Assembly (NCBI GenBank): GCA_003215295.1
Contig: QCKN01000001.1
Location: forward strand, 1-64,000
Reading direction: 5' to 3'
Length of the DNA: 64,000 nt
Source of the DNA: Prochlorococcus sp. AG-409-P03
GTDB lineage: Bacteria > Cyanobacteriota > Cyanobacteriia > PCC-6307 > Cyanobiaceae
Shown: piece by piece, positions 56,451 to 59,040 of the stretch
How positions within the stretch are numbered: the first letter of the stretch is position 1
How the letters are laid out: every line of letters starts with the position of its first letter
Made by a program: the position numbers and the translations under genes
Notes under the pieces: model-generated
Database searches by the model: none
Told to the model about the DNA's origin: nothing
What the model saw: the letters and a program-made list of their open reading frames with translations, nothing else

Positions 56451-56472
56451 TTAAAATAGCTGTATTTTAATT
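56449..56472. terminator. AT-rich hairpin overlapping both rpsF and argG stops
   Basis: AATTAAAATA (56449-56458) and TATTTTAATT (56463-56472) are perfect 10-base inverted copies with loop GCTG. It covers the stop of rpsF (56448-56450) and the stop of argG (56467-56469). It may act as a bidirectional terminator, though the stem is A/T only and so weak. Confidence 0.5.
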
Positions 56473-57687
56473 GTCAATATCAAAGGTTTTTCTCGCTGAT
56501 GCCCATAGCCTTGTAGGAAGTCCCCATATATAAATAAATCCTTCGGCTGCTCGATGGTTAAATTGATCATTACAGCCATAAGTTGCCATATCAGGCATAT
56601 AAAGGCTACTGGTATTTGAAGATCGTCCTATAACAGTTGCATTACCTTTATGCAATCGAATTCTCACAAGACCATTAACATAGCCCTGTGTTCGATCAAT
56701 AAAACCATCTAAAGCGTCTTTTAAAGGACTAAACCATAAGCCTTGATAAACCAAATCTGACCATTGCCTCTCTATTTGACTCTTTAAGCGCAATACATCA
56801 GCGGAAAGCGTCAAACTTTCTATTTCTTGATGAGCTCGTATCAGCAGAAGCAAGCCAGGAGTTTCATAAATTTCCCTACTTTTAATGCCTACAACCCTAT
56901 TTTCGATAATATCAATACGACCAAAACCATGCTTCCCAGCAATAGTGTTTGCAAGTCGAATTAAAGAAACTGGATCTAATTCTTTACCATCAATAGCAAC
57001 TGGATTACCCTCTTCAAAAGTTATTTCTATCTCCTGACATTGATCAGGTGCATCATCTATAGATGATGTCATCGCAAATACTTCTTCCAAAGGAGCAACC
57101 ATTGGATCTTCAAGAGGACCTGCTTCAACGCTGCGACCTAATAAATTCAGATCAATCGAATAAGGAGACTTTTTACTAACTGGGGTTGTAATTCCACAAC
57201 CCTCTCCATACGCAATCGTCTCTTCTCTACTCATTCCCCATTCTCGAGCAGGAGTCAAAATTTTTAAATCTGGCGCCAGAGCACCTATAGCCACATCAAA
57301 GCGAACTTGATCATTGCCTTTACCAGTACAACCATGTGCAACCGCATCTGCACCCACCTTCCTTGCAACTGAAACCAATTCACGAGCTATGAGCGGTCTC
57401 GCTAATGCCGTAGACAATGGATATCGACCTTCATAAAGAGCATTCGCACGAATAGCTGGATATGCAAACTCTTTAATGAAGCATTGAACTAAATCACCCA
57501 CCAATGACTGAGTTGCCCCAGCGCGAAGAGCTTTCTTTCGAATTGGCTCTAATTCATCACCTTGTCCAAGATCTGCTGCAAAAGCCACTACCTCGTTTAT
57601 GCCATATTCCTTTTTCAGATACGGAATACAAACGCTGGTGTCGACTCCACCTGAATAAGCCAACACAACACGCTTAGCAAGACCCAT
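56467..57687 (-). CDS. argG: Argininosuccinate synthase
   Basis: 406 residues. The ATP pyrophosphatase motif A-Y-S-G-G-V-D-T-S near 10-18 is followed by [23 protein letters not shown] near 119-131 and K-K-S-P-Y-S-I-D-x-N-L near 189-199. It joins citrulline and aspartate in arginine synthesis. ATG start. It faces the rpsF gene end to end, with a shared hairpin at the stops. Confidence 0.97.
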
Positions 57688-58099
57688 CAGACAGACCCGT
57701 GGAGAAAAACGAAAGAACTTTCATAGTCAATAATATGAGCCTATTAGAAATTTGAATATCCAAAATCAACAAATAACTAGTAGCCTCAAGTCTAGGAAAA
57801 AATACCTACAAGAAATAAGCAGACCAAAAAAATACGCATCAAGCCTTGTCAGTGTTGACTAGTAGAAATTCACAATTTTAATAAAGAAAAACTACTATTC
57901 AAAAAATTATAAATCTATAAATACCAACTGGAGAGCTAATTGACTGCCATCAATTTACAAGAGCAGGCAAGCAAAAAGCTATGCCCTCAAAGGCTTTGAA
58001 CTATAAATGCAAATAAGAAATCGTCTCACTAAAAGTGTTGGTAAAAGCCGAAAACCGAAATCAAGCACATCCACTTAACTGTGAACCAAATAGCTAAAC
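57688..58099. other. Gap upstream of argG without recognised gene
   Basis: An AT-rich stretch holding the argG promoter region on the minus strand. No ORF with a plausible start, no tRNA and no repeat was seen. The right half of the gap is described separately as a candidate RNA. Confidence 0.6.
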
Positions 58100-58440
58100 A
58101 TGGCAATGCGTGTAAAAACCGATTGTCTTCTTCACCTAATGGTAGGAAGCTAAATGCATAGATCACGGAGGCGTCCATGGACGACACGCCACCAGAGACT
58201 GCTTAGAAGCAAGCTGAATTAGGCTCCTGCTCCAACAGTCTTCACCTATATGTGGGCTATTCGTCTGTTTTGGCATTTTCAATTAGTAAGCCAAAACAAT
58301 CGACACTCCTCTGCATCGTCTTAGGTGCCCTTAAAGGAGATCAGCCAAACCCCTGAAACGCTGGCCCCAGGTTGCCAAACCTCAGAAGCTTCAAGGATCT
58401 CTAAATAAAAGACCGCTCTCTGCTAAAGAGGCGGTCTTTT
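58100..58440 (+). ncRNA. Candidate structured RNA ending in a strong terminator
   Basis: No convincing ORF exists here, but there are several hairpins in a row: GGCGT/ACGCC (58170-58190), AGACTG/CAGTCT (58196-58241), a perfect 9-base TGTTTTGGC/GCCAAAACA (58266-58298), GAGATC/GATCTC (58337-58401) enclosing AGGTT-GCCA-AACCT (58369-58382), and a terminator (58408-58439). It does not show the conserved cores of RNase P RNA, tmRNA or SRP RNA. The 5' end is a guess and the strand is inferred from the terminator's T-run, which also exists in the other direction. Confidence 0.4.
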
Positions 58441-58445
58441 ATTTT
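58408..58445. terminator. Strong intrinsic terminator, usable from both sides
   Basis: AAAGACCGC (58408-58416) pairs with GCGGTCTTT (58431-58439), with additional partial pairing inside, followed by TATTTT. The A-run on the left makes it work for minus-strand transcripts too, so it can end the small membrane-protein gene at 58500 as well as a plus-strand RNA. Confidence 0.85.
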
Positions 58446-58499
58446 GCTTTCAATTCAGAACAAGAAGCGAACCATAAATGCATGTAATGCAAACCACTT

Positions 58500-58724
58500 C
58501 TAACTGTCGGTCTGAAAACCTGAAAGAAGAATCCAACACCCCAATAACAATGAAGGGCCTAAAAGCAAACCAAAGACTAGAAGGGGTCTGACATGAAAAG
58601 GTTCAGGGTGATGCACACCCCAAAACCTCAAACCAAAGCTGACGAGCAATGCAAGGAGCCACATCAAAGCCATTAAAGGCAACTTAGAAGTCAAAGGAAA
58701 AATAAAAACTGATACATCATGCAT
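58500..58724 (-). CDS. Small conserved membrane protein
   Basis: 74 residues with two hydrophobic segments (about 13-32 and 46-68) separated by W-G-V-H-H-P-E-P-F-H-V-R-P, a His/Pro-rich turn. ATG start at 58724. No known domain. It is divergent from the DUF3134 gene, with 34 bases between the ATGs, and is followed by the strong terminator at 58408-58445. Function unknown. Confidence 0.65.
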   Translation of the reverse strand: MHDVSVFIFPLTSKLPLMALMWLLALLVSFGLRFWGVHHPEPFHVRPLLVFGLLLGPSLLLGCWILLSGFQTDS

Positions 58725-58758: not shown

Positions 58759-59040
58759 ATGAGCGACCTCGATAAGGTCAACCTAAGTGCACTGGATGGA
58801 ATTAATCCTGCACTGAAGCGTTACGGACGCAAAGATCCTGCGCCAGTGTTACCACTGCGAGAAGAGCCAGATCTTCTAACCTGGCTTGAAGCAAGCGGAA
58901 GGTTAGTTGCAGATGAAGACTCCAGCTCTCAGGAGGTCAGCACAGTCGAAGAAGAAGAGCTTTCAGCATTAATGGGAGAAAAAGAGGACTACAAAACTGA
59001 TGACGATGATGACCAAACAGAAGAAGACTGGGAAGAATAA
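58759..59040 (+). CDS. DUF3134 family protein
   Basis: 93 residues from ATG 58759 (a TTG at 58741 would add six). The conserved N-terminus N-P-A-L-K-R-Y-G-R-K-D-P-A-P-V-L-P-L-R-E-E-P-D-L-L-T-W-L-E-A-S-G-R-L is that of the small cyanobacterial family DUF3134; the C-terminal half is a highly acidic, disordered tail. No function is known. It precedes mraY by 63 bases. Confidence 0.8.
   Translation: MSDLDKVNLSALDGINPALKRYGRKDPAPVLPLREEPDLLTWLEASGRLVADEDSSSQEVSTVEEEELSALMGEKEDYKTDDDDDQTEEDWEE

Follow-up and report, generated by a model that had tools for sequence, protein, structure and literature searches.

The 2016 description of Yfr103 from Red Sea metatranscriptomes presents this RNA as non-coding and of unknown function, with a conserved secondary structure and, at −58 to −29, a palindrome that is imperfect (PMC5069720). 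Synechococcus CC9605 contains seven Yfr103 paralogues of 290-328 nt, and Yfr103 accounts for 55.2% of the CC9605 reads in a Red Sea sample. Homologues are reported for WH7803, RCC307, SS120, NATL, MIT9303/9313 and others, and the transcript level changes with light and temperature (PMC5069720). For the MED4 RNAs Yfr8, Yfr11 and Yfr16, the published RACE ends are located 9, 8 and 8 nt before GGAGG, respectively, and ORFs are noted in Yfr6 and Yfr9, not in Yfr8, Yfr11 and Yfr16 (PMC2518516). The published decay times are more than 20 min for Yfr16, 19.7 min for Yfr8 and 4.8 min for Yfr11, with a median near 2.5 min, and the published expression of Yfr11, and more weakly that of Yfr16, falls in light and rises with DCMU.

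Two kinds of described system resemble Yfr103 as it is analyzed here. SgrS/SgrT of E. coli, SR1/SR1P of B. subtilis and RNAIII/delta-haemolysin of S. aureus are likewise structured small RNAs that have their own promoter and terminator and encode a short peptide. However, these peptides are about 26-43 amino acids long, whereas the micro-ORF of Yfr103 has 7-14 codons, is located at the extreme 5' end, is present family-wide and in multiple copies per genome, and belongs to a module that is reused on unrelated bodies. Leader-peptide regulators that depend on Pro-Pro stalling and EF-P also contain a short Pro-Pro ORF beside a structure, with the stop codon inside a helix, but differ in that no downstream gene is controlled at the locus analyzed here, where stalling is proposed. 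We know of no base-pairing target of Yfr103. Yfr103 is already known as an extremely abundant RNA. Its Shine-Dalgarno (SD) sequence and micro-ORF, its link to Yfr8, Yfr11 and Yfr16, and its divergent high-light homologues (for example in MED4) are added here, and were not found described in the literature searched.

The RNA between argG and a membrane gene

The window, which is the whole stretch of 64,000 nucleotides of Prochlorococcus sp. AG-409-P03 that was analyzed, contains a gap of 812 bases (57688-58499) between argG (56467-57687, minus strand) and a membrane ORF of 74 codons (58500-58724, minus strand). A sequence-only reading of this DNA had noted the gap, with a size of about 800 bases and the same neighbours, and had placed a structured RNA at 58100-58440. 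An RNA is indeed encoded there, but 58100-58157 is its promoter, and the RNA itself, about 285 nt long, spans about 58158-58442 on the plus strand. Its 5' end is placed at about 58158 by analogy with the RACE ends of MED4 Yfr8, Yfr11 and Yfr16, and its 3' end is given by the terminator. A covariance model built from 26 homologues found by blastn (R1) matches 58159-58392 with 228 bits. Because both flanking genes are on the opposite strand, the RNA of the window is a free-standing transcription unit. For the plus strand of 58158-58445, the folding energy is −96.8 kcal/mol (z = −4.5, with 0 of 200 shuffles as good), in agreement with the stable folding that had been claimed, and a wider stretch gives an equal z.

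The RNA ends, again as claimed, in a strong terminator, which is an intrinsic hairpin with a T-run at 58402-58442 (plus strand), recognized from sequence, fold and alignment. In the alignment, most relatives have a terminator hairpin of differing sequence at the equivalent place. The hairpin of the window is nearly symmetric, with an A-run before it and a T-run after it, and therefore may also end the convergent membrane gene. The order argG, RNA, membrane ORF, acidic ORF, mraY and purT is kept among low-light-type Prochlorococcus single-cell genomes. The acidic ORF (58759-59040, plus strand) that stands before mraY in this order is small and very acidic, and is 74-87% conserved among low-light-type Prochlorococcus relatives.

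When the whole window is searched with Rfam at the gathering threshold, no match is found except one tRNA elsewhere, so that no family at threshold matches the RNA, and relaxed E-values give just terminator-like chance matches at the locus. The weak matches to Thr_leader, Yfr19 and STnc130 stem from the terminator hairpin and were not accepted. Neither Rfam nor ARAGORN gives a match to tmRNA, RNase P RNA or SRP RNA at the locus, where the sequence-only reading had not seen them either.

By blastn, the RNA is detected in 26 of 60 relatives, all within Cyanobiaceae. Of 272 near-complete genomes of Cyanobiaceae, 258 have a homologue that R1 detects; the copy numbers in these large searches are lower bounds, with eight candidates per genome scored. 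Outside Cyanobiaceae, R1 gives one marginal match of 24 bits (L107), which lacks an SD-ORF, and neither the Yfr103 pattern in viral contigs nor a blastn query of phage records gives any match. The genome of 2,510,659 bp (G238), which we take to be Synechococcus CC9605 and whose count of seven copies supports this assignment, contains exactly seven full-length R1 matches of 124-184 bits plus one short match; the eighth copy (G238:C1:1172111-1172227) is short as judged by the model matches. The genomes of 2,410,873 bp (G093) and 1,751,080 bp (G010), presumably those of Prochlorococcus MIT9313 and SS120, contain one R1 match each, the copy in the former being at 1655933-1656173, and RCC307, WH7803 and MIT 0701 have matches in a pattern scan. 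By prediction, the RNA measures about 285 nt in the window and about 304 nt in MIT9313, while three CC9605 copies have about 328-333 nt and a fourth has about 363 nt; these approximate lengths correspond roughly to the published 290-328 nt, with some outside this range. The palindrome of the window (58103-58126) is located at −55 to −32 from the inferred transcription start, which fits the −58 to −29 of Yfr103. Strain distribution, the presence of seven copies in CC9605 and one in MIT9313, length and upstream palindrome make it near certain, on sequence grounds, that the RNA of the window is the Prochlorococcus homologue of Yfr103. Thus, the suggestion of a new picocyanobacterial small RNA is right in that the RNA is conserved, structured and provided with its own terminator, but the family is not new, because it is Yfr103 (PMC5069720). 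Covarying stems without an Rfam match had been taken as the mark of a new family; the stems do covary and no Rfam model exists, yet the RNA had already been described.

Yfr103 copies at other loci have different gene neighbourhoods, and the context of argG and the membrane ORF is found only in Prochlorococcus-type loci. The genome of the window contains a second, divergent copy (L095, G000:C7:17246-17528, 42 bits) with an SD sequence and the peptide MEDTPPEF. At another locus (L109, G097:C1:2267700-2269500), three tandem copies with equal scores are spaced by 450 bp.

The micro-ORF and the secondary structure

The sequence-only reading had seen no ORF in the gap. However, an SD sequence, GGAGG (58167-58171, plus strand), precedes a 9-codon ORF, ATG GAC GAC ACG CCA CCA GAG ACT GCT TAG (58177-58206, plus strand), which encodes MDDTPPETA and is recognized from its SD, start and coding signature; both are kept across the family. 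The SD of homologues with a complete 5' end is GGAGG, rarely AGAGG, and its GAG core is present in all of them but one. All 111 distinct 5' modules have an SD, a start codon and an ORF of the type M-x-D-T-P-P-E, mostly 7-14 codons long family-wide, and 36 of 56 codon changes among them are synonymous, although these modules were partly chosen by peptide pattern. To remove this bias, the coding test was repeated with the R1-selected set, which is chosen regardless of any ORF. In this set, the start codon is located 4-11 nt 3' of the SD in 85 of 85 homologues with a GAG-core SD, and CCNCC keeps to the reading frame in 81 of 83. When the single-base codon changes of the Asp-Thr-Pro-Pro-Glu core are counted along a minimum spanning tree, 27 of 40 prove to be synonymous, against an expected fraction of 0.27 (p = 1.1e-7), while the +1 and +2 frames give 5 of 38 and 1 of 35, respectively; the third codon position takes 34 of 52 changes. 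As judged by this codon signature, the micro-ORF is under in-frame purifying selection, and it is probably translated.

The peptides of relatives include MTADTPPEQIAEAD, MIDTPPEYQIEAN, MSVDTPPEYPPEVI, MTAETPPEQALEAR, MEDTPPGQMSGVC and MRDDGPTQQNLEAA, each followed by a stop codon, and the substitutions are mostly conservative (D to E or N, T to S, E to Q). The ORF partly overlaps the paired positions of P1 and P2, which also restrict change. The peptide is, however, kept where P1 is altered, as in MIDSLPAISE and in DGPT variants such as MRDDGPTQQNLEAA, so that RNA pairing alone is not a sufficient explanation. Beyond codon 7, the ORF length is not conserved and ranges from 7 to 25 codons; of 61 sequences, 51 have the stop codon within the 5' strand of P2 or of P2b, and in 8 the ORF runs past P2b. 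One paralogue (L214, in G227) has a frameshifted micro-ORF encoding MKDTPLSSR and is, from its sequence, perhaps a decaying copy.

The 5' half of the minimum free energy fold of the single sequence is partly unlike the conserved structure, and therefore the structure was rested on covariation. The analysis of covariation, which the sequence-only reading had proposed together with the Rfam scan, was carried out for a 56-pair model; the 61 homologues had been aligned with plain MAFFT, independently of any structure. The stems covary, with changes on both sides in 29 pairs and 143 cells, as compared with 15 pairs and 43 cells in shuffles. Conservation of the paired positions, on which that reading had staked its proposal, is found as well, because 89.6% of cells are paired, as compared with 30-40% when the partners are slid. 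Its description of a structured RNA therefore holds, with covarying stems, but the RNA is not simply non-coding, since it contains a conserved micro-ORF. Two features of a dual-function small RNA are found in Yfr103, namely an SD, a start codon and in-frame selection on the one hand, and a structure kept by compensatory change on the other.

The first helix, P1 (58167-58193), is a hairpin in which GGAGGCG pairs with CGCCACC. It is paired in 89.9% of cells and changed on both sides in one of six pairs. This predicted fold buries the SD by pairing it with the Pro-Pro codons, and places the start codon in the loop. The body (58206-58392) has a multibranched core and is closed by P2 (58206-58210 with 58388-58392) and P2b (58214-58217 with 58382-58385), all identified by covariation. 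The core contains the near-invariant segment CCTGCTCCAACAGTCT (58226-58241), identified from the alignment, and the other near-invariant segments GGCCCCAGG and AGGTGCCC. Helix P7 (58261-58303) is hypervariable, with 10 of 11 pairs changed on both sides, and contains the perfect 9-base stem of the sequence-only reading, which is present as described (TGTTTTGGC, 58266-58274, with GCCAAAACA, 58290-58298). P8 (58305-58340, ACTCC with GGAG), in which 5 of 5 pairs are compensated and 70% of cells are paired, encloses the hairpin P9 (58313-58328, GCATC with GGTGC), which is 100% paired and nearly invariant. An alternative pairing of AGGUG (58323-58327) with CACCU (58350-58354; CCCCU in the window) is 97% complementary across relatives but invariant, and shows no covariation. 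All these elements are on the plus strand. In the high-light Prochlorococcus copies L096-L100, the element ACAAGGATC(A/C)ATGATTTAGGTGCGT stands apart as a hairpin on the 3' side of the core, whereas in the low-light copies L019, L073 and L024 it is located within P7, as if, from the sequences, a domain had moved.

A 5' module common to Yfr103, Yfr8, Yfr11 and Yfr16

The region upstream of the RNA contains an imperfect 24-bp palindrome, GCAATGCGTGTAAAAACCGATTGT, of the GCAAT-N14-ATTGC type (58103-58126, plus strand), which is recognized from the alignment and from half-site symmetry. It is aligned in all modules except the most divergent, and a comparison of 46 distinct 24-mers gives 76-100% symmetric pairing at the five outer positions of the half-sites. 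From its conservation and its position at about −55 to −32, it is a probable transcription factor site. The segment GAAGCTAAATGC (58146-58157, plus strand), with conserved A/T positions in the alignment, is the probable −10 region according to the position of the transcription start.

A sequence-only model of 128 nt that extends from the palindrome to the ORF (R2) matches four places in the genome of 1,657,990 bp, which we take to be that of Prochlorococcus MED4 and which agrees with three published coordinates. These places are Yfr8, Yfr11, Yfr16 and a divergent Yfr103 encoding MIDSLPAISE. The micro-ORFs of the first three encode MIDSPPEI, MIDSPPENLMRLV and MIDSPPEKFIRLV, respectively. Yfr8, Yfr11 and Yfr16 thus have the palindrome, the transcription start 8-9 nt before GGAGG and the micro-ORF in common with Yfr103, but their bodies differ from that of Yfr103, being a short hairpin or terminator in Yfr11 (149 nt) and Yfr16 (138 nt) and another sequence in Yfr8 (PMC2518516). 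Body homology between Yfr103 and these RNAs was not found, with R1 reaching only the 5' part of Yfr11. In the Synechococcus loci L112, L113 and L200 (G097 and G034), the module, with a peptide of the type LTDDTPPE..AEAS, serves as leader to a gene whose product, a protein of 99 amino acids, has no Pfam match above the cut-off and no NCBIfam match. L114 and L202 are mini-RNAs in which the module, with a peptide of DGPT type (for example MRDDGPTQQNLEAA or MCDDGPTQQALEAA), is followed by a short segment and then by a terminator. R2 gives no match outside Cyanobiaceae.

Possible roles of the micro-ORF and the body

We think it rather probable that Yfr103 is a dual-function RNA whose micro-ORF, through being translated, controls how stable the RNA body is or how it folds; the translation, the pausing, their coupling and the downstream role are what we infer. 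According to this model, the dedicated promoter with its upstream palindrome would start the RNA 8-9 nt before the strong SD, at which a ribosome would load and translate the 9-codon ORF. Because the Pro-Pro codons are the pairing partner of the SD in P1, a ribosome that initiates and translates them would open this hairpin. Because the stop codon is located inside P2 or P2b, a ribosome that reaches it would have to open the body-closing helix, while a ribosome paused at Pro-Pro would leave this helix mostly closed. Pausing at Pro-Pro that is relieved by EF-P is well established, and a ribosome slowed there, as at EF-P-dependent motifs, may protect the 5' end and set the time at which the body folds. 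The body, as an RNA that is abundant and stable, may then act in trans when cells acclimate to light/redox conditions or to temperature. More tentatively, and with somewhat less than even probability, the module may be a mobile 5' cassette that is placed on different bodies (Yfr103, Yfr8, Yfr11/Yfr16 and some mRNAs) and in which translation tuned by Pro-Pro sets stability or folding. Two of the module-bearing RNAs, Yfr16 and Yfr8, are long-lived, in favour of the dual-function model. Points against it are that the module-bearing Yfr11 is not long-lived (4.8 min), that P1 buries the SD, that part of the ORF overlaps paired positions, that the ORF varies in length past codon 7 and that one paralogue has lost the frame.

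The micro-ORF might instead be a mere 5' stabilizer or docking site, at which a Pro-Pro-paused ribosome blocks decay from the 5' end, with the peptide and any control of folding being irrelevant. The presence of the module at the head of unrelated bodies (Yfr8, Yfr11/Yfr16 and the leader of the 99-amino-acid protein gene), the long half-lives of Yfr16 and Yfr8, and the varying ORF length past codon 7 are consistent with this explanation. We consider it unlikely, because Asp-Thr-Pro-Pro-Glu and the DGPT variant are kept at the amino acid level, which is more than docking needs, and because Yfr11 decays in 4.8 min. That the peptide itself is the product, so that these RNAs are minimal mRNAs for a peptide of 7-14 residues and the Yfr103 body is a later addition or a regulator of translation, is less likely still. 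Selection is in frame, and Yfr11, Yfr16, L114 and L202 contain little beyond an SD, an ORF and a terminator, but the peptides vary outside D-T-P-P-E, and the Yfr103 body covaries and is conserved at least as well as the ORF, which suggests that the body has a role of its own. It is even more doubtful that Yfr103 is purely non-coding, with the SD, the ATG and the frame as by-products of the constraints on P1 and P2. P1 does pair GGAGG with CCNCC, and the Glu-Ala codons do coincide with P2. However, such constraints do not account for third-position variation and a synonymous excess in one frame only, for a properly spaced start codon in 85 of 85 homologues, for a start codon that has no pairing role in P1, or for an ORF that persists in RNAs with other bodies and in copies with a changed P1.

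Two further explanations concern the locus as a whole. One is that the RNA acts in cis on a neighbouring gene, as a leader or attenuator. At a few loci of Synechococcus (L112, L113 and L200) the module does stand before a protein gene, but such a role is highly improbable here, because both neighbours are on the other strand, the RNA has its own terminator and the copies elsewhere have other gene neighbourhoods. The sequence-only reading had also offered 6S RNA, which is likewise an abundant bacterial regulatory RNA of a similar size class, and the size and multi-stem fold would suit 6S RNA or another housekeeping RNA of Rfam. This identification has a negligible probability. The locus has no match to 6S RNA (RF00013) or to any other Rfam family, the same genome has a separate, proper 6S gene (G000:C11:3987-4172, 70.7 bits, above the cut-off), and neither the multibranched architecture nor the presence of up to seven or more paralogues per genome is that of such an RNA.

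The conserved micro-ORF joins four separately named 'ncRNAs' (Yfr103, Yfr8, Yfr11 and Yfr16) into one family, and a family that lacks an Rfam model gains an alignment and a structure. It also makes the open question of Yfr103 function testable. If the more tentative reading of a mobile cassette is true, one of the most abundant picocyanobacterial transcripts in the ocean, which has been filed as non-coding, would belong to a family of ribosome-engaged RNAs.
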